DNA of 64,000 nt. Origin: Phoenix dactylifera (lineage: Eukaryota; Streptophyta; Magnoliopsida; Arecales; Arecaceae). Position numbers and translations under genes: made by a program. The stretch is taken from the NCBI RefSeq assembly GCF_009389715.1, contig NC_052394.1:23614399-23678398 (forward strand). The letters run 5' to 3'. Below, piece after piece: positions 1-57,945 of the stretch (position 1 is the stretch's first letter; the number at the start of each line of letters is the position of its first letter). A model generated the notes under the pieces. The model had not been told where the DNA came from. It did not search any database and was given only the letters and a program-made list of their open reading frames with translations.

Positions 1-435
1 ACACAAGCAATTAACATCTTTTATATATTGGCAAATGAAAGCAGATTTTCGATTACCATACTCAAGAGCATTGGCAAATGAAAGCAGAGTCAAAACCGGA
101 CAAGTAATCAACATCTTCCTCTTCTATTATATGTAACCATTCTCTCCTCTGACATTTTGCTCTCGTTACTTCATTATTTGTTTTCTTTGAACAAGCCCAT
201 GGCTCTAATTAACTTCTGTGATGTCAATTTGTAATGTTTGTGTATGATCATGCTGATTTTGCCCAACAATTGCACCATTCCAAAGTTCCTAGTCAAGTGC
301 AATTCACAGAGGTCACCATATCCTATTGAGACTAGCTATTATGGAAGGCATTTGCATGGCTTTGCTTGATGCTTCAAGTACCAACTCTTCAGAAGTTATT
401 TACAAGGCCAGAAAACCAAAATTGAGATGCCAAAA

Positions 436-804
436 TCACAAAGATTTCCAGGGACGGCAGTCGAGTTTGGTGCAGGTGGATTCCCAGGCGCTCCTGCACT
501 CCCCTCCCACTCCGTCGCAGCACCGGCAGAGGAGGCCCAGCGACTCCAGCACCTTGACATGCCCTGAACCACGCCATGATTGAAAGACTCATTAGACTTT
601 CATACCCATCCCTTCAAATACACATAATTAGACGGACACAGCATAAACAGGTAAAATTCTTCAGTAACTTTCAGAGAAGCTCTTACTCTCTTGTTTCCCC
701 GAGGGCAGCGGCAGTGGCCTGGCTTCTGCAAACCCGGAGAGGTGAAGATATTGGATTGAAACCAGGAGCAGCAGGAAGAAGAAGGGAGCCCTTCGTGATT
801 CCAT
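436..804 (-). CDS. small secreted cysteine-rich peptide, two exons
   Basis: Exons 804-687 and 563-436 (minus strand) join to 81 residues plus stop. Exon 1 starts at ATG 804 and encodes a basic start (MESRR), a hydrophobic core FFFLLLLVS and a likely signal cleavage near residues 26-29 (AEA/R). The donor GTAAGA follows 687, and the acceptor TTCAG precedes 563 in matching phase. Exon 2 encodes a compact domain with six cysteines spaced C-x1-C-C-x6-C-x7-C-x4-C, containing CRCCDGVGGEC and ending CRPWKSL. A TATA box lies just upstream (843-849), giving a short leader. The layout is that of a secreted plant cysteine-rich peptide acting in the apoplast as a signal or defence molecule; that role is inference. 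The spacing does not fit EPF, LTP, defensin or GASA patterns as I know them. The gene model is fairly sure, the function unknown. Confidence 0.72.
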
Positions 805-842
805 GTCTATTTTTCTTGGCCAGAGGATTGCAACTTGGAAGG

Positions 843-849
843 CTTTATA
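843..849 (-). promoter_or_regulatory. TATA box of the cysteine-rich peptide gene
   Basis: On the minus strand this reads TATAAAG, about 40 bases before the ATG at 804. With the usual 25-30 base spacing, transcription would start near 815-820 and leave a leader of only 10-20 bases. Confidence 0.5.
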
Positions 850-3800
850 CACTAGACGTGGACTCCATCTAGGTCTTGGTCCTCTTGGAGTTATTCTAAT
901 TTCTGCACGATGTGAAATGATATCCGTATAAAATCTCAAGAAATTCGCAACCATCCTCCTTTTCCATGAACCGAGTCACCAACTTTATGGGTCTTTTCTA
1001 GATCGATGAGACAGAGGAGAGACAGCTCGCAAGGGAAGGATATCATTGGTCGTTTGATTGCTTAATGATGAAAACATGTTCCTGTCCCTTCTGAACTAAG
1101 TGGGGTCCTGTGGGGCTTCCGGAAGGGGTCCAGCCGGCGTTGCACGCGTCTACGCTTCTTTTAGGTCTCCCCCGTGAAGCAATGGGACCCACGCTCGTGG
1201 ACCAGGGCCGGGCCAGCTGTAATTGCAGGGAAATTTCCTGGTGCCTGTCGCTTGTGATTCGGTCCATTTCAGGGGGCGTATGGAAGGGTAGAGCTCAGCT
1301 GAGTCTTGGCCGGCAGCAAACAGCCTCCTTGTCCTTGGTGATATAATGTTCGACGAAACTAAAGTGGGGCCCACCGAACTTGTGAGTGTAAGTAGGACAC
1401 GTCGGCGTGGAGGGCTGGTTGCTGTTCTTGTTGTTTTAGGAGATTGCCTATTTATCAGCTTATATTTTGGGTTGGTTCAGGCTGACGTTGACTGCGCTGG
1501 ATGATCCATTCTTGCGTGAGCGTAGGTAGGGTGATAAGACCAAGTTTAATGTTGCATTATATAGGGTTTTTTTTTTCATAAATATCCTACTAAAAATTTA
1601 AACTTGCATAAATATTCTCTTAAATTGTATATTTATTTTTTATTCTCATAATATACTATTCTTCTTGTACCATCATATCTATATTCTTCTTGTTAATGTT
1701 ATAGTATAGATTTCGGTTTATGACCATCATCTTCTCATGAGCACAGCCGAAACACTAATATAGATTTACTCTCTACCAAGGCCATCCAAGGTCAGGTCAA
1801 CTGTTGCTTATCATAAATTTTAGTAATGAAATATCCCTTGAGTCTTAACTTTTACTCATTATATATAATCCATAATATTCTTCATTGTGAACTTCTTGGA
1901 TTGCTTCTTGAAGTTATGAATGCTGAAACAGCTAGGAATTGCAAAGTATATCTTCTTTTCTTATGTGATGACTTTGTTTTGGTTCAATCTTTAGCAATAG
2001 TTTAACAATAGAGAGTAGTTCATTCATTTGTTTATTGGACGAGTATAATTCACAGAAGGAAGCACCTAGCAACTCATGAGAAAGAGCCGTGGAATAGAAT
2101 AACCGGTTCAAATGAGGGCTAATGACCTAATGAGCTGTTGCTCTGTTAACTTATATATGTCCAAGAAAAGATCATTTATTGATTGGATCGGCGAGGATAA
2201 TTTCTAGGAAGAGTCATTGATAAGATAAATGACGGTTGCACTGGAGGCTATTGACCTAATAATCCATTTTGAATCCGGCTGATCCAAGGCCTTGTAATCT
2301 GACCAACGAATAGGAATCAAAGCCAGATTTGGTCAAGTTTGTCCTTCAATATAATTTGTTGTTGTCTTGCATTCTTAAATTTAAATCTATTGACCAAGTG
2401 CAACAAAATTACTATTTAAAATAGGGAGTAGAGATATTATGCAGGCGTCCACATGATAATAGCGGGTTTGTTAAGGATTTAGGTAACAGTCTTTTTTTTG
2501 GGTATTAATTATGGAGAGATTAGATAAGTCAAGAAAAAAGATTTAAAAGATTCCGGTTGATACTTTTATTTGTTTCAACTAATGCGGCATGAAGAAGAGT
2601 CCTTAACATGGGTATTGAAAATCTTAATAGCTGGTTTTTGCTTTTTAGATTAATATCAATTATTTTTCCTTTTTTGGAAATGATAACAATTAGGATTTTT
2701 AATTGAGTTATTAGGAAGAGTCCCGATTAATCTTTTTTTTTTTTTTTTTGAATTGGTATGCTGATTAAGATTCTTTGGTTTGTTTCAAGTGATGCCTAAG
2801 AGGAAGAGCCTTTACTGTGCGGATTTTTTTTTTTTTTTTGAGCAAATTGGTGGATTTTTTTTACTGATGTAGATGTAGGCTATTTTTTGACGTTGATTAG
2901 GATCTTAACTGATCTTAATTTAGAAGAGTCCAGATCAGTCAAGAAAAAGTATTCTTTGAATTGATGCCGATTAAAATTTTTATTTTCAATTGATGCCTAT
3001 TAAAAGTTAATCTATAAGTGTTATGATAAACTCGTGATCCAGAATTTTAGATTAATGTGGCTCCTCTAATGATGTGATATTGTCAATTTTCTCTAATTTT
3101 GTAGTAGATTTTCTCAAATTCTGAAGGCAGGATTGATTTCTCTGTACATTTAATAGATATGTAGAAAGGTACGGATGTAACTTTATCTTATATATTATTT
3201 TTTCTCTAATGTACATTGACATGCAAGTTACTACTATAAAGAAATTATAGATCAAAAAGTAGATAAACGCAAGGAAATTTATATATAAATGAATAAGATA
3301 TTAGCACCAATTGAGATACTTTTTCCCGATCCAGCTTCAAATTTGAGTTTGGTTTATCCGTTCGACATCATGCCCTCTGTTTAATTATATTTAATTCTAT
3401 CAAATATTAGCATCTTCATTGGCTACACTACTTGTTTAATTATATTTAATTCCCTCTGTTTTATTTCTGTCACACATTAGCAATTCCTAATAATTTTGAA
3501 AGATAATAAAAAATCCTAATAATTCTAACACTAGTCATTTGTTGTGCATGATTATCCACGACGACTGTCAAGAAAATCCCCAATTTGATAGAAATTTTGG
3601 TCCTTTTGCAGCAAAATAATATGAAAAAAGTCAAAAAAGAAAATTATAGAAACACCTCCCCAAGTTTGAACTAGTTAAACTTAGATCCCAAAATTTTAAT
3701 AATTTTTGATTAGCCACCAAAACTTAATTTTTATTGCAATATGACAAAGAAGAATTGAAATACAGAATAATTTTCATGGCCCGAAAGCATGTGCAAGATT

Positions 3801-12705: not shown

Positions 12706-14552
12706 ATGGAGGGCAAGAAACCCACCGCTTCGTCTTCTTCTTCTTCTTCGAGAATTGCCGATGATCTTTTCGGCCGGAAGGAGGCCGCGGCTTCCTCTGC
12801 TTCCTCCTCATCCGCATCCTCTGGCTACTTCAGCAGCGTCTTCCCTCCTGCCTCATCGGTAACTTCTTCTGCTGCTTTGTTAGTGTTGATCGTGATCGAT
12901 TCTGATCGAAACAAACGAGAGAAGTTATCGTGATCCGTCCCGAGGTTTTGGTTTTATGTTCTTGTTGCACGACTTCTACCTCATTGGTGTTGTCGGAATT
13001 TCCACTCAAGTTATTACTGGGATGCGGCTTTTAGGTTTGCGAGGTTTTGGGGCTTATTCGTGTCGTGTGCATGGCTTAGTTGTGCATTTTTCTTTTCGGT
13101 TTGGGGTTTTATAAATTTATGTTGTTTGCTGTTTATACTTGATGGATTTTTTGATTTTGTCATTTGAAAGTTGCGGATTGTTAGGTTGGATCTGCTTGTT
13201 GGGTTTTGTGATTCTTCATGGGAATGATATGGTTCTGTACTTTGTAGTTAGGATTGAATTCGAGCTGACACTTTCTATGCCTCACATATAGATCTTGCAT
13301 GTATTCTATCTTTGATTGGTAGTGTACGATAGGCTGCTGCTCGTGTTTTTGGGGCTTTGTAACGGTGGCTTCATGCTTCAGGCTCTGATCGTTCTCTGTT
13401 TTATGATGTTAGGTCGTGGGAAAGGATTCGGCTCATTCCGACTTGTACTGGACGTTGGACAAGCAAAGAACTGAGGGTCGGATAGGGAATGCTCAGAGCT
13501 CAAGAGCAGGTTCTTGAATATTCTCTTCTTGACGTCACTGTTCAAATTCAACGCTCTTTGTTTCTTTCTGTTTCATGTCTTATATGTCATGTAGAAGACA
13601 CCTGCTTCAAAGATTGTCATTCCTCGATGCTTGAATACCAATAACCTATGAGAGGCCACCACTTGTTGATGGGTTCCAAAGTCATACTTGAAGATTGTAA
13701 TGCATGCCTGAATTCATTTATTTGTGAAGTGGAATTCTGATAACACAAGATTAGGGCTTGTGGAGTAAAGGACCAAAAATCTCTTTTTGTTAGGCCATGG
13801 CATATCCATTTCTTGTGCTTCAATATATTCTTGAAGCTCGATGTTGGGAGAAGTGATAGAATGATATAATGCTGAACTAACTAATAAAGCATCTGCGATT
13901 CTACTTAACCAATACATGTCGGTCTGTTTCTTGTGGATTTGATTGCAACTATAGGTTCTGTTAGATCCAGTATTACATATTATTTCTAGACTATTGTTAA
14001 TGACAAACTCTGCTATAAAGTTACACCTGCAGATGATAAATGTCAAGGCCGCCCAAGCAAAAGCCACAACACAAGCAACAAAGATGGGAAATCAGCCTAT
14101 CCTATTGAATCAACTGAATCGTCCTATTTCGGCTCTTCTATTCATTATGGTGGCAGAGAATTTTATAGCAGCTCTCCATCCATGCAGAGTTCTGGAGCTT
14201 ATAATAATGTAAGTGAAAACTAACATTTATAAGGTAACAAATTACGAGATGTAATTAAAAGTATTTATGCTTGATTGTGTGATTGAATTTTATATTTTTT
14301 TGGTACTTTGGGAAGATGAAATCCAATTCTATAACATGCATCATTTTGTATTTCTTTGTGTTCTAAACTCGTGCAGTATAAAAACAATGGTGAAGATGAT
14401 TTGGGTGATTCAAATGTTGCTACTAGAGGTGATTGGTGGCAAGGTACAATACCAGTCTAAAAATTTTGGGTAAATAGCATGTATTGAGGAGACAAACAGT
14501 TCTCTAACTTATCCATTTTTTTCTTACTTTGCCAGGTTCACTTTACTATTGA
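12706..14552 (+). CDS. plant-specific protein, MEGKK...WWQGSLYY family
   Basis: Five exons, 12,706-12,858, 13,413-13,509, 14,033-14,208, 14,377-14,443 and 14,536-14,552, give 169 residues. All junctions are GT-AG and the phases match. The protein starts MEGKK, has a serine-rich stretch, then the conserved block DLFGRK, SGYFSSVFPPASSVVGKDS, a polar disordered middle, SSIHYGGREFYSS, and the ending GDWWQGSLYY. From memory, this start, the F-PP-S-V-G motif and the WWQGSLYY end define an angiosperm family of small, disordered, functionally uncharacterised proteins. The last exon is only 17 bases and is supported by the family ending. There is no signal peptide or membrane segment. Family assignment is strong; the biochemical role is unknown. 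Confidence 0.88.
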
Positions 14553-19627: not shown

Positions 19628-20084
19628 TCAAGGCACGGTATACGCTGCAGGCAAACGTAAGACAGATCGTTTTGAGGAGAACGTGAAACGAATCTGATGG
19701 GAGAAAAGCAGAGAAAATAAAACATTACAGTACTCAAAACTCACCACCACATTTGTATCCCACAGGGCGATCTGCCAGGTTGCACCGCTTGGGAATTGTG
19801 ATTGCTACTTCAGGCTTGACTCCGGCACTCTTTGCAGTATCCGACAGCATAACAGCACAGAGGCAACTTGGGTTCTGGCCTAGCTTCTGCACCTCTGCAC
19901 AGCACGTACTCGAAACCTGGGCCTCGGCATCTTGTGATGCTGATGCACACGGAGCCATCCGAAAGGCCATTCTGTTCACAGGAACCTTCCCACATTCCCC
20001 AGCTCCATTGGCCCTCTCCAACCCAGCGATACTGGCAACCACAAGCAATCCAAGAATGCAGAGGTACTTCATTGCAACTTCCAT
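19628..20084 (-). CDS. eight-cysteine lipid-transfer protein (copy 1)
   Basis: Exons 20,084-19,745 and 19,644-19,628 give 118 residues. The signal peptide spans about residues 1-28 (hydrophobic YLCILGLLVVASIAG, ending ANGA). Mature cysteines are at 31, 46, 61-62, 74, 76, 101 and 112: the eight-cysteine helix-bundle motif of the LTP/2S-albumin superfamily, with CLC and IPKRC signatures. Reading through the donor would end GGEF; splicing the 17-base second exon gives the family-type tail YKCGAYTVP, so I prefer the spliced form. The start at 20,084 was chosen because an upstream ATG-like codon lies at or before the expected transcription start; a TATA box is at 20,126-20,133. Likely role: extracellular binding or shuttling of lipids. 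Not a classical type 1 or 2 LTP by spacing. Close paralogue at 23,431-23,889. Confidence 0.9.
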
Positions 20085-20125
20085 CTCTCGCTCTTCAATG
20101 CACAAAAACATGATCGACAATGGGG

Positions 20126-20281: not shown

Positions 20282-21763
20282 TCACCTCCATCGGTCCCGT
20301 GGAAGTGGGTATTTGCAGTAATCATTATTATCTTTTACTTCAGCGCCTTTAGAGATGCACAGGAAGAGCCTCTCATAAGCTGCCGCCATCTTTGCCGCAG
20401 TAAATAGCTGCAGTGCTCTGTTTCTCGCAACCTCACCTTTCTTCGCGAGCACCCCTCTTCCATCTCCCAGAATTCTGTGCAAGGACTTCTTGAGTGAATC
20501 GACCGTCGGCAAAAACGTGTAGCCGATCTCTGGCCCCACGATCAGAGAGCCTGTGATGCTGGCAAACCGTGTGCCCATCACGGATACACCTGAAAGCATC
20601 GCTTCGATAAAGGTATGGTCCAGCCCCTGCGCTCTGAGCGTCGGATTAATGAAGACATCGAGCGAGTTGTAGAAGCTGGCCAATTGTTTCTGCTCCAAAG
20701 GACCCAGAACAAGTAAATTTGGTCCAAGCTCCCTGTATCTATTACCCCATGGTCCGTCTCCAGCAACCAGGACGTAGACGTTTCTTTGGAAGCTCGCATT
20801 CTCCATGAAGACCTGCTTCAGTGCTTCAAACATCAATGGATGGCCTTTATCCTTCACCAACCTCCCCGCCAGTCCTACTACTAGAGTCGCGCTGTCGGGG
20901 ACCCCGACCTTCCTCCGGAACTCCCTACCGCTTGCTGCATCCGGTTTGTAGGTTTCTTCATCGACACCATTTACAATTATGTGAACTCGTTCTTCTGGAA
21001 TCATATATATTCTCTTGAGGACATCTCCGACATGATCGCTCGTAGCTACATGGTGGGCATAGTCGCGGAAGAACTTGACTTCATCAACCACCTTGGCGAC
21101 TCTTTCTGTAAATACGGAGGGACGAGGCTCTTGCGGACCACGGAGGAGATCTTGGACGATGTCGGAATGTATGGTTTCGTAGGCTATACCATGCCAGGAA
21201 ACAGCAAGATGGCTGAGATTACGGGCACGGCCGTGCAAGAGGCCGACGCTTTCGGTATGGATCATGTCGAAGGGTTTCCCCGTGGTATTCTGGACGCGGA
21301 ATCGCTCCCATGCCAGAGCCTGGTTGAGGTAACCGGCGGGACTTGGCGGGGTCGCGTGGAATTTTATCTTGGCATCGGGGTAGTCTGGAAAGGCGGAGCT
21401 TGATGAGGTTGTGAAGACATGGATCTCATGGCCTCTTCGGGCGAGGGCGAGATGGAGGGTGAGAGCGTGTCGTTCCAGGCCTCCGGCAAGACTCCGACGC
21501 GGCCATCGCTTCACGAAGAGAGCTATCTTGAGGAGCCTGGGTGGCGGACCGGGAGAGAAGGAGAGGTGGTTCCATGCAGAAGGGTAGGCAAGGAGATCAA
21601 AAGTTTGGTTCTGCTTTGGTAGCGCGATGGCAGATTCAGTTTTACAGGGAGCAAAGCACCGAGACCAATATACGAAAGACATGGGCGTTAGTGCGGAAAA
21701 TACGAAGAGGAAGCAGCAGAGCTGGTAGAAATTGGAGGAGAAGGTGGGATGATCCTTTGCCAT
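20282..21763 (-). CDS. GT4-type glycosyltransferase, single exon
   Basis: An uninterrupted 493-codon frame starts at ATG 21,763. Residues about 13-33 form one hydrophobic segment after a short N-terminus, giving type II membrane topology and probably a Golgi location. The rest is a GT-B fold retaining-transferase pattern: AGGLERHALTLHLALARRGH at 93-112 (glycine-rich nucleotide-side loop), NGVDEETY at 265-272, GLAGRLVKDKGH at 298-308 and the acidic EX7E-like region HTFIEAMLSGVSVMGT at 383-398. This matches the plant GT4 group of Arabidopsis At1g75420/At1g19710 type, about 480-490 residues, so it looks full length. Donor and acceptor sugars are unknown. Its 3' end lies only 198 bases from the LTP copy 1 start, so its 3' UTR overlaps that promoter. 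The long plus-strand frames within it are shadows. Confidence 0.9.
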   Translation of the reverse strand: MAKDHPTFSSNFYQLCCFLFVFSALTPMSFVYWSRCFAPCKTESAIALPKQNQTFDLLAYPSAWNHLSFSPGPPPRLLKIALFVKRWPRRSLAGGLERHALTLHLALARRGHEIHVFTTSSSSAFPDYPDAKIKFHATPPSPAGYLNQALAWERFRVQNTTGKPFDMIHTESVGLLHGRARNLSHLAVSWHGIAYETIHSDIVQDLLRGPQEPRPSVFTERVAKVVDEVKFFRDYAHHVATSDHVGDVLKRIYMIPEERVHIIVNGVDEETYKPDAASGREFRRKVGVPDSATLVVGLAGRLVKDKGHPLMFEALKQVFMENASFQRNVYVLVAGDGPWGNRYRELGPNLLVLGPLEQKQLASFYNSLDVFINPTLRAQGLDHTFIEAMLSGVSVMGTRFASITGSLIVGPEIGYTFLPTVDSLKKSLHRILGDGRGVLAKKGEVARNRALQLFTAAKMAAAYERLFLCISKGAEVKDNNDYCKYPLPRDRWR

Positions 21764-23430
21764 GGTTGAGCGCTAGCTACAAAGGGAAGGGAAGGGGAGG
21801 GGAGGGGAGGGACCGAATGAGGAAACAAACTTGGAGATGAATGAGATCTCAAATGAAAGAAAAAGGAGTCGATCTTAGTTACAAGACCCAAGACTAAATA
21901 CGGGGTATGCTATTTGACTTGTGGAATCATCCGCATGTGCATAGTGCTGGCTTTTAGGCAGATTTAGGTTCGAAACCATCATAAGCAACCTCTTTGTTAA
22001 ATTTCCTTCGAGGTTTTACGGTCAAGATCGTGTTTTACATTTTTTTTCCTTTCTTTTTCTTGTTTTGAGCGGAGTTGTCCCCACTGCCCATTGACCTCAT
22101 TGGTGCTTCCAATGCTTCCAAACCATGAACAAACATACACCAGGTAATTAAATAAAAATACAGAAAATTGTATCACACCTCCAAATTGAAAAGAGAACTA
22201 ATAATAGTATTTGGTTCCTTGGTAACTGCAAATGGGTCGGGTTGACCCATGACCCGACCCGACCCATATAGATCTGATCCGATCCGAATTTTAGGACCCA
22301 CGGGGCTGAGCCGGATCCTAAATTTGAACCTGTTTTATTTTTCGGATCGGAATTAGGTCAATCCAATCTTGACCTGATTCGTTTTGACCCGAACCTGAAT
22401 TGTCCCTTTAGATATGTAAAACCACATGCCGCAGCCGCAGTCCTGTAGCCGGCAAGGGATGAAGTTACTTTTGTAATGCAAGAAGATGACACCATCTTAG
22501 TCTTCTTAATATCCTGCTTCAGAAAAACAGGGATGGTGATGCCCGTAATCTTCGTTTAATTTTAAAAGCCATATGCATAGCGCCAAATGCCTACTAAATG
22601 TTCCAAAGTGATGGCCGACCACTTCACTGGAGGCAATCTATTATATAACTTGAGATTAAATTAAGGCCATGAGACGGTGGTGGCTAATCTACCCAACAAT
22701 TACTCCCTCATGCAAGCCTGAATCAGAAGACAAATGTGGAAGGAACAAGAGAGCCTTCACATAGTTCCATTTTTTTTTTTCCAAACGAAGGTTACATTTA
22801 TGGGGGAAAGAAAAATCAAAACCAAAACTCGAGGGAAAATTAGTGGTACGTTCGGTGAAACTAAGTGAAGAGAACCCTAGCAATGTTGGGTGGCTCGAAG
22901 CGGTCAAAACCAGGAACGATTTACAAGTGTGCACATAAAGTAACATTAATCGGAAATTTGTCTTCATTTTCTGTGAAAGGAAATGTGGTTCCAGGTAAGT
23001 ATATCCCTCATGACCTACTCTCTTTGAAATGTTCGACAGACTGCTCGCAATATTTGATGGTTTGAGTTTCAGTTTGATGTGAGTTGGACTTGTATCAGGG
23101 AACAAATTGTTAAAGTGGATTACTTTCCTTTTCGTTCCTCCGGCAGAAAGTGATCGAGCTGCATTTGACATACTAAACTGCACCAAAAGTGCAGCCAAAA
23201 TCATGCATAAAAATTTGCAGCTTCATTCAGCACATCAATAACTTATTTATTTATTAGATTTATTAGGATATACATGCTTCATAGTTCACACACTGCCAGC
23301 AGCATATTACAACTACTCCACCATCATATACTCCAAGATGAGCTCAAAACATCATATCCAGCAAACTGGCAGCTAGAAACACTTCCACTATTCTTCCACA
23401 GTGATCCGTTTTTCCTCAACTTCTCGATGC
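21764..23430. other. intergenic between GT4 and LTP copy 2
   Basis: 21,764-21,900 is the probable GT4 leader (CT-rich on the coding strand). 22,228-22,400 is a degenerate tract built on GACCCG and GGATCCGA words. The rest, including 22,689-23,204, shows no coding character despite a long minus-strand open frame. The last part should be the 3' UTR of LTP copy 2. Confidence 0.45.
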
Positions 23431-23889
23431 TTAAGGCAAGGTATAACCTGCAAGCAAAGGTTGGTTTCTTTCAGGAAAACCACAAAGAATTTGATGGAAA
23501 GAAGCAAAAAAAATGTATAGAAGGAGCATCATGAGAACACCCAACCTACCTCCACATTTGTAACCCACAGGGCGGTGTGCAAGTCTGCACCGTTTGGGGA
23601 TCGTCATTGCTATCGCCGGCTTGACCCCAGCTCTCTTTGCAGTGTTTGAGAGCATCACAGCACAGAGGCATCTTGGGTTCTTGCCCAGCTTCTGCACCAC
23701 CAAGCAGCATTGAGCTGAAACCGGGGCGCGAGCATCATGCGATGCCGACGCACAGGGAGCCATCCTCAGAGCCATCTTATCCGCAGGAACCCTCCCACAT
23801 TCCCCAGCTCCATCAACACTCTCCAATCCTACCGCCCCTGCAAGCAGAAACAATCCAAGAAGGCAGAGATACTTCCTTGAGGCCTCCAT
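23431..23889 (-). CDS. eight-cysteine lipid-transfer protein (copy 2)
   Basis: Exons 23,889-23,550 (340 bases) and 23,447-23,431 (17 bases) give 118 residues, the same exon lengths and cysteine positions as copy 1 (31, 46, 61-62, 74, 76, 101, 112). Signal peptide about 1-28. The tail is YKCGGYTLP after splicing. The most conserved block is CLCAVMLS-TAK-AGVKP-IA-TIPKRC. The 102-base intron is a multiple of three and has no in-frame stop, so unspliced RNA would encode 152 residues with an extra hydrophobic insert. Likely role as for copy 1, an extracellular lipid carrier. TATA at 23,934-23,942. The two copies differ by a moderate number of substitutions, so the duplication is not recent. Confidence 0.9.
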   Translation of the reverse strand: MEASRKYLCLLGLFLLAGAVGLESVDGAGECGRVPADKMALRMAPCASASHDARAPVSAQCCLVVQKLGKNPRCLCAVMLSNTAKRAGVKPAIAMTIPKRCRLAHRPVGYKCGGRLGVLMMLLLYIFFASFHQILCGFPERNQPLLAGYTLP

Positions 23890-23933
23890 CTCTCACTAAT
23901 ACTTTGCACAAACCGTGCCTGTTTGCTTGGGTA

Positions 23934-23942
23934 TTATATATA
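23934..23942 (-). promoter_or_regulatory. TATA box of LTP copy 2
   Basis: The minus strand reads TATATATAA, 45-53 bases before the ATG. It sits at the same relative place as in copy 1, with the two shared upstream blocks further out. Confidence 0.6.
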
Positions 23943-24030
23943 CTGATGAACTCCCGGAGTCATCAATCGTCGTGATAGATGACTGCCATGCCACCTCATA
24001 AGCCATACAGCCTTAATGGACTCGGCACTA

Positions 24031-24356
24031 CGAGGTCACGTACCCCATTCCCATTGCTGTAATTATTGTTATCCTCCACTTTTCAGCTCCTTTAAGCTTC
24101 TGCTTCTTGTAGACATGCCATCTGGGTGGCAGCAAATATATATATATAATATATCTGCTTCTTGAACTCCTTTTCCTTTGTTGCAGCACTATCTCTCAAC
24201 AGAATGGTTGAGCGAGGTCACCTACTCCATTCCCATTGTTGTAATTATTGTTGTCCTCCACTTTTCAGCTTCTTTAAGCTTCTGCTTCTTGTAGACATGC
24301 CATCTGTGTGGCAGCAAATATATATATTATATATCTGCTTCTTGAACTCCTTTTCC
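24031..24356. repeat. tandem 182-bp repeat, two units
   Basis: Units 24,031-24,176 and 24,213-24,356 share 'cgaggtcac', 'tccattcccattg', 'gtcctccacttttcagct', 'tctgcttcttgtagacatg' and 'ctgcttcttgaactcctttt', with an AT dinucleotide stretch of variable length in each. The offset is 182 bases and identity is above about 90% by eye. The array lies just beyond the conserved promoter blocks of LTP copy 2. Confidence 0.85.
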
Positions 24357-24966
24357 ATGTCCATAAATCCTCTATATGGACTTCTTTTTAAGTGAACCAG
24401 TTGCCAGTAAAAAAACAAAGTATAGACTTAAGGTATTATGCAAGAAACTTTAAGGTAGTAAAGAGTGAAAGTAGGCTCGTTAAGATAAAAGTCTATTAAT
24501 TTCATCATCAAGCTATCTCGCATCTGAATGCCCCCAAAAAAAGCTTCAGATAATTGAACCACCAGCACTGTAAAACAAATCCAAGACACTGACAATTTCC
24601 AACGTAACGTAAATTTTATATAAAATGCGACACACGTACAGCTGCAAAAGATACAATTCCTATTAATAAAAAAAAAAATCAAGCAAATACTATTGGAAAC
24701 TGTTACAAAAACCTTGTGATGTGTAAATAATAACACTGCTCATCAATCACTACAAGAACAGCACACCAGATGCTGAGCTAGCTTAGTGGAATACGAAATT
24801 GTCAGGATAGCATTTGTTTTTGCAACCCTCGTGAGAACCATCATCATAATCTTCTTTTTCACAAGATCACCTCGAATCTTATGGCAAGTCAACGACCTAA
24901 TTAATTAATATAGCGAGGTCCTGCCGGCTTTCCGAGTCCCTATTGTTTTGTGAAAGAGAAGCTCGC

Positions 24967-27942
24967 TCAGGCTTCTAGACTGACGCCTGAAATCGGTGCT
25001 GATACCTCAGCTCTGCTGCTAGTCTCTTTTCCCTTCACCTCAACTCCGAGATAATTTGTCAGAACTTTCTTCACGCCATATCCACGAGTATGAGACTTTC
25101 TGCTGATCAATGGAGACCTCTCTCCCAGCACTGGACTCATTGAAGGTGTGGGCAAGAAGCTTGGTGTGGCATAAGCAGTCGCATATGGAGTGCCTGAGAC
25201 GGGCACCAAGCATGGAACTGGGACTTTCTTGTGAGAAGCGACACCAACTGCGTGAATCGATGACGAATACTGGTCCGAATGTTTGGTCAAGTCATCAGCA
25301 CAAAGCAGGTCATCAATGCGAGCAACAATGTTGTACGCGAGGCTCTCCAAGACTCTGGAATAGCTTTCCAGAATGGATTTTCCAAAATCCTGAAAGTTGG
25401 ATCATCGCAAAAGCCATTCACAATCCGAAAGGTCTTCATGCAAGCATAAACCGCGTTCAAAGCAAGGGAGGAAGACAAACCTTGTTGAATTGGATTTTGC
25501 TCATATCCAAGGTTGTTTGTGTCAGACCAGGGAACCTCTGCTTCAAACATAGCAAGAGGCACTTGGCTCTATCAGCGAGCAACTCTCTTTTCTCAGCATC
25601 CGTAATGATATCCTTGACCATACCCCATGATGATCTAGTGTTGGTTCGATTTGTATTATTCGTAGATTTGGCAAACGTTCTCCGACGCCATACATAAATT
25701 GATGCCTCGACGTGATTGGCAATCTCTAGAGCTTGGTGCTCGGAGGATAAATCAAGGCAATCGAGAAGGCATTCAGGGGAAAATTGATCCGAAGTGATAT
25801 AGCGATATATCACATCGCCTAGGCATGCTCTTCCATTCTGCGGACCAAGAACAAACGAATAACAAACATCAGGGTTCATGACATGTAGAAAGCTATACAA
25901 ATATTCAAAATGAAGGGAGACGTTATGCCACAATACTATGATCATACAAGTAGAAAAGATATATCCATTCGCTGTTGCTGTAAATCGACGGCGGCAATGG
26001 AGCTCAATTCTGATCATTATTTATTGAGAGTAGGCCTTGCTTTAGAAGTACGAGAGATAAGCAGCATATACCTTTGGAAGGGACTCGAGATACGACTCAG
26101 GAACCTCCATTTCAACCAAAGCATTGCTGTTGATAGCCATTGCAGCCTTCAAGATTTGGTTTGCGCACTCACGTTTGTGCTGCAATTGCTTTCTCGTCTT
26201 CTCATGGAGACCGCCAGGAGGTAAACGAGGCACAGGCAGCCACCACTTCTCTTCTTGACGACGAAGAGTTCCACGGAAAGAGGCCGACCCATCAGACTCG
26301 TTTGCAAGCACTCCTTGATCGGCATACCAAAACTCTGTATCACTAAAGCTGTCCAATATTTCCTGCGAAGAGTAAATTCTCGATAAGAATCATGACCCTC
26401 ACTCGAGTTTAGATTAAGAATCAGGAAGCAGCATCGAGTCTCACAAGAAGCATATTGTCTAGTTTGCGCAGTGCTGGAAGATTGGCATATAGGTCAGATC
26501 GTTGTCTGCAAGTCATGACCTGAAATAAAAATCAAGAACCATGCACCGTTTATGCATCTATTCAAGACTAGTGAGTTATAACAAAACAACTGAGAACACC
26601 TCCAAGGAACCAACCAGGCATTGACTTCGATATAAACATATGTATACATGTACGCACATACGCACACAGATGAAATTTTTTTGTAACAGTTAGATTTGAT
26701 TGACATGATGAATAATTGAGAACAGTGAGCGAGCATTCCAGTGAGAGTCAACCCAACCCACCTAAGAAACAGACTCATGCGTGGTGAAGTAACAGATGCA
26801 ACAGATAGCCAAATGCATGGATGCAAAGGCAATTTTAATCCCTACAGAGCTTCGGGAACAGTAATCACCTCCAGCTTGCTTCCGTCAGGAAATGTTTGCC
26901 AAGTGGGTACCAGTTCGACTATGTGATCGCTAACACAGAGAAGCCACTCCATTTCTCTTCGCCACATTGACTTCTTCTCGGGAGGTAAAGGCTCCAACCT
27001 CCAAAGCTGCCCAAAGAGAGTGGCTGTAATAGGACAGAAGGTGCAGGAACGTTTTAGTTGAGGCTCATAGAATTTATTTCAGCAAACAAAATTTTAGTTA
27101 TAAACGAATGAACCAAAAAAACCAGGGAACTATCAAAACTTACCACAGAGATTAGTTATAGCATTCGAAATGGCCAATGCGGTGCAGACCCCTTTCCCAG
27201 AGCCTGACATGTCTTCTCCAAGCAACAACTTGGCAAACCTCTCCTTCATCATCTCGATATCTACTGGAATACAGAAGATAACCCCAAAACATAACTCTTC
27301 ATTCAGCCAAACCAGTACGGTTGAGGACATGCACATTTACCATGATAGCGCAGTCCATATTGACACCAATAATACATAAAACATACATAAATGACAACAA
27401 TAATACATAAACGAGATTTACAAACTGTTGATTGAGGACCGAAACCAAACATAAAACAAAATTTCTTTTTTAAAAAAAAAATTGATGACAAAGCCATGTG
27501 AGGGCAAAGAAAAAGATCATAAAAAAAAAAAAAAAAAATCTAAGTTAGTGGCATTCATCTATTTGATCGGTATTACTATTTGTTACAAAGAGATAATGAA
27601 GGGGGAAAGGAAAACATGCATGAAAGAAGATTCAATACCTGAAATGTTGGGCTTCAGCTTATCCATTCCACTATTTTCCTCACGACTTTTCTCCACATTG
27701 CCTATTATTTCAGAGGTTTTGCGGTTCTGCATTGGCCAACCCAACGATGCCGAATGCTTCTTGGATGATTCCTCGGAACTGCTAAGGCCTCGTGACTCTT
27801 CACTGGACGAAGTCTCAGAGCTCGAACTACTCCCATGGCACTCATCTTCCGCCGAGTCGCTAAAGGACTCGCCCTCTCCCCCAATATCTTCCGACCCATG
27901 ACCATGATCGCCAACACCACCCTTCTCCTTTCCATCATCCAT
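24967..27942 (-). CDS. ROPGEF: RopGEF, PRONE-domain guanine nucleotide exchange factor
   Basis: Seven exons: 27,942-27,639; 27,263-27,144; 27,023-26,869; 26,519-26,445; 26,362-26,072; 25,837-25,481; 25,389-24,967. They give 574 residues with matching phases. Residues 1-101 are an acidic, serine-rich variable region ([14 protein letters not shown]). The PRONE domain runs from about 102 to 470: [107 protein letters not shown] and [20 protein letters not shown]. The remaining 104 residues are a variable tail of the kind that regulates these proteins by autoinhibition and receptor-kinase binding. PRONE proteins activate plant ROP GTPases at the plasma membrane in polar growth. ATG 27,942 is the first ATG in the frame; the frame is open upstream to a GTG at 27,993. 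The subfamily number cannot be assigned. Confidence 0.95.
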
Positions 27943-36672: not shown

Positions 36673-38301
36673 GGTTCTGTTTGGGGGAGCTTTTGGAGGG
36701 CCAAAAACTACTTTCTAGCTCTTCAAAAGTACTTTTAGCTAAAAAATGGTGTTTGGTAAATTTTTCGAAAAGTTGTTTCAGCTTTTGCGGGAATCTGAAA
36801 ACAGCTTTTGGAGGGAAGCTCCAATTTGAAGCTTTCCGAAAATGCTGTTTTCAGCTTTTTCGGAAAGTTATATTTTTGACCAAAATACCTCCATTTAAAA
36901 AAAAAAAATCCTAAAAAACTCTCTCTCACCGTCTCTTCCTCTCCCACCCAACCCCACTCCCTCTCCCCCGCCCCCATGGTAGGGAGGTGCCGAAGAAGAG
37001 GAAGACGGGTAGTTTTCCCTTTCCTGCGGTCGCCGACGGCCATGATGTCCCCGTCACGGAAAGGAGCGGTGCCGAAGAAGAAGGAGGTCCCACGGTGGGG
37101 AGGGGCTGAAGAACAGAAAGAAGAAGGGGGCGCCCTCCCCCTTCCTGCGGCCGCCGGCGGTCACGACCCGCCCCCTCCCGGGTCCACCACGGACCGGCCC
37201 CTTTCCGGCGCTGTCGGCCTTGCGGGAGGAGAGCACTTCCCAGGGGGCCAGCCGCGGCCGCCGAGACTGTCGCGGGCGCCGCTGGCCATAGCCCGGCCCC
37301 CTCCCGCAGCCGTGGCAGCCTGGCCCCCTTCCGGCGCCGCCGGCCACGCGGGAGGAGAAGAAAGGAGAACGGGGGGAGGAAGGAAGGAGAAGAAGAGAAG
37401 AAAAAAAGAAAAGAAAAAGAAAAGCAAAAAAAAAGAAGAAAAGGAAAGAAAAAAAAGAGAAGAAAAGAAATTTTTAAAAAAAGAATAAATAAATAAATAT
37501 TTATATAAATGAATGAATGAATGAATAAGATAATAAATAAATATATTTCAACATTATTAATTATTTACACTAATAATTATAATATTTTATAACTTTATTA
37601 TTGTATTATACTATAAATATAATATTATATTATATTATATCATAATACATTAATATGTTATGTTATATTATGAGAAATTAATTTATACTAATAATTATAT
37701 TATTTTATATCTTTATTATTGTATAATACTATAAATATTATATTATATTATATTATATCATAATACATTAATATGTTATTTTAAATAATTTAATATTATG
37801 TTATATTAAGGAAAATTGATTTATACTAATAATTATACTATTTTTTATCTTTATTATTGCATTATACTATAAATATAATATATATTACATTATATCATAA
37901 TACATTAATATGTTATATTAAATAATTTAATATTATATAATATTATGGAAAATTAATTTACTCTAATAATTATATTACTATTATGTTACGCTATGCAATA
38001 TCATATTACTATATTATAATAATATTATTTTACATTACAGTAATATTATACTATATCGTATATTATGTATTAATATATGTTATGTTTTATTATGCTCTGT
38101 TGTATAATACTATGCAATGTCCTTTATGGTAAATTTGTCATACAAAAGTACTTTCTTAGTTTATTTACCAAACACATGTTAAAGTGCCACAACACTTTAA
38201 AAATGTAGTTACCAAACAGCAAATAGATTTTTATAAAAGCTCTACTTCAGACAGCTCTACTTCCAACAGCTCTACTACCAACAGCTCCCCCAAACAGGGT
38301 C
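36673..38301. mobile_element. PIF/Harbinger-like TIR element, copy A (1,629 bp)
   Basis: The ends are inverted: GGTTCTGTTTGGGGGAGCT on the left, and the right end read backwards gives GACCCTGTTTGGGGGAGCT. Each is flanked by TAA (36,670-36,672 and 38,302-38,304), the three-base TWA duplication typical of PIF/Harbinger and Tourist elements. Subterminal text is also inverted (aaaagctctacttc... against ...ctagctcttcaaaagtac). The interior has no transposase: a GC-rich block (about 36,940-37,370), a purine-only block (37,370-37,480) and an AT-rich tandem array. It is therefore non-autonomous. Open frames in the GC-rich block are compositional. Confidence 0.8.
37556..37990. repeat. AT-rich tandem array inside TIR element A
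   Basis: Just over three units of about 120-137 bases, each opening with 'actaataattat', then 'ctttattattg', 'tactataaatat', 'atcataatacattaatatgtta' split by small indels. Unit starts are near 37,568, 37,686, 37,825 and 37,960 (partial). Element B at 57,500-57,700 carries related single-copy text. Confidence 0.75.
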
Positions 38302-47200: not shown

Positions 47201-49230
47201 AAAAAGGTTTTCTGTCAGTGAGAAACCTTGCAGACACTACCGCATGACTCATAAGATATATACAACTTTAATTCTCGACTACATAAAAGGAGAAAAAGTA
47301 AAAGGCTTCACACTGGATGTCGTTAACTGAATTGCAGGTTTCCAGCATGCTCTGAGGATGAACTTGACAACGACCTCGAGATATGGTGTATTTTGAGTTT
47401 CTTAAATATATTCGTATTAAAATTATATAACTCATCCATTTCATGCAATAAATAAATAAACCCGATGATATTATAATTTGTTAAACTTAAATTTTATGTT
47501 ATTTAATGTAGGCACCTTGCAAGTTGCAACCATGGTGAGATAAAAACGGAAATCAAGTAGGGCCCATGAAATCCAGAAAAATTTAAGGCCATATAAGGTG
47601 GTGGGCAGAGCAACCGACCCTACTTTTGTGGTGGCTTCTTCTTTCTTATCCCGTGGGCAATTGCTTGCACGCTATAAAAAAATCTTAAAAAAAAAAAAGA
47701 AGAAAAGGAAGGATGAAGGCCAAGAATGGTGGTGTGCTGCAAGCTTAATAAGAGTCTCTCAAAAAGGTCAAAGCTCAATACCATCAAGGGAAGAAACCAT
47801 CAGTAACACGTATCTCCATGCATCACCTGACCCCATCCTAAAGTGGAGCCCGGAGTCCGGCCTTTTTGATATAACACGGGCCCCTGAACTCGCCATAATC
47901 AGAGGAAGACGCAGAAGCCGGCTGCTGCCGGTGTCAGCAGGGGTCGAAGAGGCGGTGCGCGATCAGAAAACATTGGAGTGGAAATATAATTGCGATCCGG
48001 AGGTCCCATCTATTGTTTCGAGGCCATTCCGTGCATCGCAACTAAAAACCGTCTGTAGAATAAGGAATCTCTGATTTGACGTGGCACCTCTTATATGGCC
48101 GAGCCCATCATTTTTAACTTGCTCCGCCGGTCTACCAGCATACGCCATGATTAGATGTAATGGCGACCAGAGTATGTGGCTCAGTCCTCCCATCAACTTC
48201 GTCATCGATAACTGTGACCGCCCAGTTCCATGTGATCCGTCTTTAAGATTAGGCCTGTTCGAGATCCAATGCCCACCAACTCCAAGCCCTTCAATTAATG
48301 ATCCTTTTGTACATGCGAGGGGATTTGACGGCCCCGTGGCCGCATGATGATGATGATGCTGCGATGCGAAAACAATTCACGGCAAATGGCATCGCTCTCT
48401 TTGTCCTTATCCACTTGGCCGCTGCAATAATTGCTACGTACACAGCTATCTACCACTCCCCGCCCCAAATCTGGCGCCTAATTTTTTTAACTTTTAAATT
48501 TCAGGATGCCAGAGCGAGTTTAGGCACCAAAACCGCGCCCAAAAGCACTAGGCTCCAGTCCTCGTAGGTTCGCGTTGGAAATAGTTTAAATCTCTTTCCG
48601 CTAAAATAAGTCAAGCGAGCTTGTGGCCCCGCGGCCCCCTTTCCATCTGATCTGGGGAACGCAACACCCCCGTCCGGTGCAGGGGGGGACTGTGGTCCAT
48701 CGCCCGAAGGGGTCCCTCCCACGGCGGGAAATTCAAAAGCTCCGGCTACGGTAAAGCCCAAATCAGTGGCTTTGGCCTTTTATATTTTTTAAATTGGAAA
48801 TTTCAAATTATTTTGCTTTTCGAATTTTAAAAATGGGAACTAAAATAATAGGCAACAGGAATAGGAGCGCCTCGAAGCTATGCACGGCCGAAGGCAGAGC
48901 AGAGAGCTCTTCTCCTTCGTTTACTTTTTAATTCATTCTTTAAATCTATGAATATTTTTTATTACTATATATTTTTATTCCTTCCATTGGCTTCCCGCCT
49001 TTTCTTTATCAGTTTATCCCACTTCGGCCCGTGCTGTCCTCCTCGGCAGGTAAGCAGGTCGCGTCGCCCCACACCCTGCGCACCTTTTTCTATTTCCTAT
49101 TTATTTTATTTTATCGCGTATGGGTTATAATTATGAAATGCCTTCTTGATTTTTGGCGGGATGGATGATTCAACCGGATTTAATGGGACGGAGTGGCGTC
49201 CGGGAGACTGGGGCGACAGCTGCCGTTTTG
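44287..49230. other. about 4.9 kb intergenic, no gene seen
   Basis: Nothing with coding character. 47,640-48,760 is GC-richer with several overlapping open frames on both strands, none resembling a family. 48,880-49,060 has a leader-like composition with AG/GTAAGC at 49,048-49,054, possibly an untranslated exon edge. Confidence 0.35.
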
Positions 49231-49694
49231 CCGACAGAAAGCGACCGTCGTCGAAGCGGACGGAGGAAGGTGGACGTTCCTGTTTCTTAAAGAAGAACGA
49301 CCAGCTAGCGGTCGATTGGGACTCCGGCGTCCGGTTCCCCGGCGGCGCTGCCAAGGCCGGCAGATTTATTTTTTTTTGCCTTTTTAAAAGAAGAACGGCG
49401 AGCTAGAAGGCGAACGTGGCAACTTCTCCACAACCGCCACGTCACCACCGCCATGGATTCAGCCGACAGAAAGCGACCGTCGTCGAAGCGGACGGAGGAA
49501 GGTGGACGTTCCTGTTTCTTAAAGAAGAACGACCAGCTAGCGGTCGATTGGGACTCCGGCGTCCGGTTCCCCGGCGGCGCTGCCAAGGCCGGCAGATTTA
49601 TTTTTTTTTGCCTTTTTAAAAGAAGAACGGCGAGCTAGAAGGCGAACGTGGCAACTTCTCCACAACCGCCACGTCACCACCGCCATGGATTCAG
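49231..49694. repeat. perfect 232-bp tandem duplication
   Basis: Units 49,231-49,462 and 49,463-49,694 appear identical base for base, from 'ccgacagaaagcg' to 'gccatggattcag'. Each contains an internal near-repeat of 'ttaaagaagaacg' and 'ttaaaagaagaacgg'. The GC-rich open frames inside are duplicated with it and are not supported as genes. Confidence 0.95.
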
Positions 49695-57177: not shown

Positions 57178-57945
57178 GGTCCTATTTGGCAAAGCTTTTG
57201 GAGGGTCAGAAAATACTAACTCTCCAAAACCACTTTTGGATGGAATATGGTATTTGGTAAAAAAAACCGGAAAACCGTTTTAGCTTTGCTAGAAAGCTAA
57301 AATAGTTTCTCAGGAGTAGCTTCTTCAGAAAAGCACTTTTAGCATGCATGAGAAAGCTATTTTCATTTATAAAAATTTTTCTTTTTAGACCAAAATACCC
57401 ATGATAAAATATTATAATTATAAAAATATTTTTTTATATTATAGAAATCTACAGAAGTCCCAACAAAGAAAATAAAGAACCCTAAATATCCTTTAATATA
57501 TAATAATAATTACAATATTTTCTATATTCATATTATATTATACTATAAATATAATATTATAATACATTATATTATAATACGTTGATATGTTGTATTATAT
57601 AATATCAAATTATGTTATATTATTAGCTATCGTATACAATATTGCATTACTATATTATAATAATATAATATTATATTACAGTAATATCATACTATATCAT
57701 ATATTTATATATTAATATATATTATATTTTATTATGCTATATTGTATAATACTATGCAGTGTTCTTTATTGTCATTTTGTTATATTCAAAGTATTTTTTT
57801 ATTTTGTTTACCAAACACACATTAAAGTTTTACGGTATTTTAGAAATGTAGTGATCAAACATCAAAAGCCTTTTTGTAAAAGCTCTATTTTAAAAAGCTT
57901 TACTTTTGAAAGTTCTACAGCCAACAGTTTCTGTCAAACTGAGCC
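57178..57945. mobile_element. PIF/Harbinger-like TIR element, copy B (768 bp)
   Basis: The left end GGTCCTATTTGGCAAAGCTTTTGG and the inverted right end GGCTCAGTTTGACAGAAACTGTTGG match copy A at 36,673-38,301, with the same subterminal 'agcttttggagggtc' and the 'ccaaaca-acattaaagt' block near the right end, plus AT-rich middle text. The flanks are TAA and TAG, a mutated three-base duplication. It lacks the GC-rich block and tandem array of copy A and is more diverged. Non-autonomous. Confidence 0.7.

Follow-up and report, generated by a model that had tools for sequence, protein, structure and literature searches.

Positions 436–804 of the window (the whole 64,000-nucleotide stretch of Phoenix dactylifera DNA analysed) likely contain a genuine plant nuclear gene, on the minus strand, for a small secreted cysteine-rich peptide that is probably an apoplastic ligand. 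The two-exon structure put forward in the original prediction is the best reading of both the sequence anatomy and the simulations described below, with splicing and secretion of the product both predicted. The gene model consists of three parts with putative signals at either side:

844–849, minus strand: TATA box, TATAAA, whose first base is 45 bases ahead of the ATG at 804
687–804, minus strand: exon 1, with the ATG, a signal-peptide-like hydrophobic N-terminus and the start of the linker; 118 nt, ending in phase 1
564–686, minus strand: predicted intron, 123 nt, GTAAGA...TTCAG, 38% GC
436–563, minus strand: exon 2, completing the Arg codon and continuing with HVKVLESLGLL, the six-cysteine domain, CRPWKSL and TGA
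396–401, minus strand: AAATAA, a possible polyadenylation-like signal (pattern match), its first base 35 bases beyond the end of the TGA

Direct reading of the minus strand confirms that the two exons join in phase between a GTAAGA donor and a TTCAG acceptor. Exon 1 translates as MESRRAPFFFLLLLVSIQYLHLSGFAEARPLPLPSGKQE plus one extra base, and exon 2 translates, after the split Arg codon, as HVKVLESLGLLCRCCDGVGGECRSAWESTCTKLDCRPWKSL followed by the stop. The joined product has 81 residues, ends in CRPWKSL and contains the six cysteines claimed for it (C-x1-C-C-x6-C-x7-C-x4-C), which span 24 residues from first to last and are preceded by a short, Pro-rich linker. The signal peptide is judged by hydropathy, which peaks at 2.72 over 11 residues in exon 1, and is probably cleaved after AEA, a candidate site picked by eye. 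Products of plant cysteine-rich peptide (CRP) genes carry a signal peptide, and the small size, hydrophobic N-terminus and even number of cysteines (six) seen in the sequence are those of the plant secreted cysteine-rich peptide class. Genes of this kind are numerous in plants, which makes the candidate plausible.

The intron contains CTAAT twice, and the branch-point-like A residues of these sites are 28 and 64 bases from its 3' end; together with the in-phase exons and the GTAAGA and TTCAG junctions, this supports the presence of a gene. Two features of the junctions weaken it: position –1 of the donor is A, where G is usual, and only 60% of the 20 bases ahead of the acceptor AG are pyrimidines. 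The intron length is a multiple of three (3 x 41 nt), which places the two exons in a single genomic frame; four in-frame stops separate them, and intron retention would therefore yield a short product without cysteines. There is no ATG between the last intron stop and the cysteines, in agreement with the claim that the exon 2 frame has no nearby start codon. The locus could alternatively be a pseudogene, a copy of a genuine cysteine-rich peptide gene that is silent or in decay, dead copies being frequent in plant peptide families, but this is quite improbable, as the exon models have no internal stop or frameshift and the intron has GT and AG at its ends.

Assignment of the start codon to position 804 is a judgement. 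The exon 1 frame is open upstream to an in-frame ATG at 954 (a 97-aa ORF), which is absent from the original prediction, and the start at 804 is preferred because of where the TATA box lies and how the N-terminus is shaped. The TATA box had been placed 40 bases upstream; TATAAA is present, with 39 bases between it and the ATG, a sensible distance that adds support for the gene. Because TATAAA occurs 92 times in the whole window (both strands), it is weak evidence when taken alone.

The window also contains a group of plant genes on the minus strand (20282–26017), comprising a GT4-type glycosyltransferase, a lipid-transfer protein and a PRONE stretch:

25460–26017, minus strand: PRONE (RopGEF-type) stretch, E 3.2e-47
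23434–23889, minus strand: lipid-transfer protein, LTP_2, E 1.8e-08
20285–21763, minus strand: GT4-type glycosyltransferase, 493-aa ORF, Glyco_transf_4, E 1.6e-17

This plant context (PRONE, LTP_2 and Glyco_transf_4 neighbours) is a further point in support of a gene at 436–804. Five of the eight ORFs scanned together with these genes match no family at E 0.01. A tblastn search of the window with the 81-aa product returns only the product itself and no second copy (remaining matches at E of at least 1.8), no Rfam families or tRNAs were found, and no repeat overlapping the gene is listed either in a scan of bases 1–3000 or by Tandem Repeats Finder.

Similar anatomy could arise by chance if an ORF resembling a signal peptide and an open stretch rich in cysteines, both random, happened to be joinable, with no gene involved. 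A search of the window required a hydrophobic N-terminus beginning with an ATG, a donor followed by an intron of 70–400 nt, an acceptor rich in pyrimidines and six or more cysteines inside 36 residues of the joined frame. At strict settings the candidate is the sole match, and it remains so with the cysteine minimum lowered to five or four. Windows simulated with an order-5 Markov model contain a six-cysteine match in 0/100 cases, a five-cysteine match in 2/100 and a four-cysteine match in 8/100. Block-wise order-2 windows, which preserve local composition, contain a match in 2/100 cases at strict settings, 7/100 at medium settings and 19/30 at loose settings (at least one locus in each of the 19; mean 1.17 loci over the 30), and the reversed window has none at any of the three settings. 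One strict match compared with 0/100 and 2/100 simulated windows makes chance unlikely and supports a gene, with the proviso that the simulation figures flatter the candidate somewhat because the settings were picked after the finding was seen. That block-wise simulations also produce such structures weakens the case for a gene and counts on the side of chance.

At loose settings three places in the real window match (four by 300-nt bins), the candidate among them; the other signal-peptide and six-cysteine structures that can be joined, found at loose settings only, are at 14336 (plus strand) and 20072–20111 (minus strand). Cysteine-rich open stretches are also present elsewhere: at least six cysteines occur in 0.53% of 8,989 stop-free 41-codon segments (overlapping and sampled every second codon, excluding the candidate and the three genes), spread over 11 strand/200-nt bins. 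These stretches favor a chance origin, and the exon 2 cysteines alone were rejected as proof of a gene on their account. Against chance stands the way in which the TATA box, the branch-point-like site and the phase all fit together.

Base composition likewise argues against chance and for a gene. The GC content is 0.55 in exon 1 and 0.63 in exon 2, compared with 0.38 in the intron, 0.42 in the upstream flank and 0.37 in the downstream flank. By codon position exon 2 has GC contents of 0.52, 0.57 and 0.79, a third-position excess that 1.2% of the 8,989 equally long open segments attain; that of exon 1 is reached by 21% of 9,755 segments. Codon scoring gave weak results: with 726 codons of the three window genes (the GT4, LTP and PRONE stretches) as the training set, the score is 10.6 for exon 2 (reached by 6.4% of the 8,989 segments and by 24.6% of 1,258 GC-matched segments) and 6.9 for exon 1 (reached by 12.3% of the 9,755 segments and by 17.7% of 2,976 GC-matched segments). 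Over the exon 2 region an antisense frame has a higher score (14.5) than the cysteine frame, which the six-frame table prints as 7.6 with the stop codon included at a cost of 3, and over the exon 1 region another minus frame ties at 6.9. The coding evidence for both exons is mixed; the weak codon scores and the higher antisense score weaken the case for the gene, and the latter is also a point in favor of chance.

The antisense score similarly favors the possibility that the real product is another ORF on the same DNA, either the minus-strand ORF read without splicing, starting at 804 or 954, or one of two on the plus strand:

576–872, plus strand: ORF of 98 aa
341–583, plus strand: ORF of 80 aa

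All of these ORFs exist, and over exon 2 the third position is GC-rich (0.81) in the frame of the 80-aa plus-strand ORF as well. However, four ORFs scanned at the locus have no Pfam match at E 1, and by eye none has a recognisable architecture except for the signal-peptide-like stretch of the unspliced ORF, such that a product of this kind is highly improbable. The spliced, two-exon peptide gene is the preferred reading.

Database searches do not assign the predicted peptide to a family. No Pfam-A model is matched at E 10 by the 81-aa product or by its C-terminal 42 aa, in a search in which divergent short members may be lost to the HMMER filters, and the 81-aa product has no match among PDB sequences at E 10. 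Pfam includes models for defensins, thionins, GASA, RALF, EPF and LTP, the LTP_2 model being the one matched by the neighbour in the window. The claim that the cysteine spacing fits no known family holds as far as these Pfam-A and PDB-sequence searches at E 10 extend, and the best reading of the sequence is that the candidate's family is probably absent from both libraries. An AlphaFold2 single-sequence model of exon 2 has three short strands at low confidence (pLDDT 68.7, pTM 0.37) and gives no Foldseek match against the PDB at E 10; because the model is of low confidence and the fold search is empty, no conclusion is drawn about the fold.

Comparison with described plant families points the same way. 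GASA peptides have 12 invariant cysteines, according to an excerpt of PMC10223810, and RALF peptides have four conserved cysteines, according to an excerpt of PMC10515272, whereas the candidate has six, which sets it apart from both. The same excerpt of PMC10515272 describes two tomato groups, CRP_6C I (C-x3-C-x5-C-x5-C-x2-C-xn-C, with the type assignment presumed) and CRP_6C II (C-x5-C-xn-C-x6-C-x4-6-C-x1-C), which resemble the candidate in being secreted, in having six conserved cysteines and in being distinct from known families, but their spacings, compared by eye, are unlike that of the candidate. Table 1 of a 2025 review, as excerpted, covers only the major Cys-rich families, including EPF/EPFL (PMC11756074); these are secreted Cys-rich signalling or defence peptides, as the candidate is predicted to be, although the candidate matches no Pfam-A model at E 10.

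Literature searches with motif and spacing strings revealed no plant peptide family with CCDG...PWK-like C-termini among the titles listed. The joined candidate pattern is absent from the results for spacing strings, which contain only the parts CX7CX4C (16 papers) or CXCCXnC (one paper) and which, by title, concern SHI/SRS transcription factors, proteases, RNA-binding proteins and similar. Literature on palms, banana and ginger has nothing on peptides among the matches listed. Some uncharacterised small secreted proteins of angiosperms may have similar CCDG...PWK-like C-termini. Pattern searches of GTDB prokaryote contigs (128 stretches) and IMG/VR (22 stretches) gave no confirmed relatives, both collections being plant-free according to their descriptions and uninformative on conservation.

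If the gene is read as proposed, exon 1 would supply a signal peptide that directs the product into the secretory pathway, and splicing would attach exon 2 to it. Removal of the signal peptide, probably at the A-E-A site, would leave the linker and the six-cysteine domain, the cysteines would close into three disulfides, and the mature peptide may act in the apoplast as an extracellular receptor ligand. Defence peptides that act on membranes are usually distinctly basic. The segment from HVK onward is nearly neutral, with 6 Lys/Arg and 5 Asp/Glu by count, and has one Trp in the loop between the fourth and fifth cysteines and a second in the Pro-Trp-Lys tail; the charge and the two Trp positions favor a ligand over a membrane-attacking defence peptide, and a ligand for a receptor is the more likely role as judged by charge and analogy. 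It is a more doubtful proposal that the candidate represents an unnamed plant family of disulfide ligands, defined by C-x1-C-C-x6-C-x7-C-x4-C and a Pro-Trp-Lys tail, that would be conserved in monocots or angiosperms and perceived by receptor kinases.

The architecture of the candidate is of a kind already known. One- and two-exon CRP genes (the Silverstein 2007 groups, SPADA) encode small cysteine-rich products, as the candidate would, and are documented as a plant class in an excerpt of the SPADA paper (PMC3924332), which supports the reading as a gene; it is the cysteine scaffold, not the architecture, that could be novel. The same excerpt reports that such small peptide genes are often missed by annotation, with manual inspection giving 77 novel CRPs in Medicago and only 3 in Arabidopsis (PMC3924332). 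Absence of the candidate from the ORF list is not equated with absence from annotation, an inference that was rejected. If expressed and conserved, the peptide would be an additional candidate signalling or defence peptide for a class that is under-counted by annotation, as the SPADA excerpt indicates (PMC3924332), and would have a cysteine scaffold unmatched in the Pfam-A and PDB-sequence searches.

Elsewhere in the window there are several tandem repeats. Satellite-like arrays, mostly AT-rich, are located at 37349–38066 (periods of 118 and 137 among others) and at 57523–57755 (TATAT-like units). Tandem Repeats Finder also identifies two tandem 232-bp copies at 49230–49694 that match at 100%, and these represent either a duplication of very recent origin or an artefact of the assembly.
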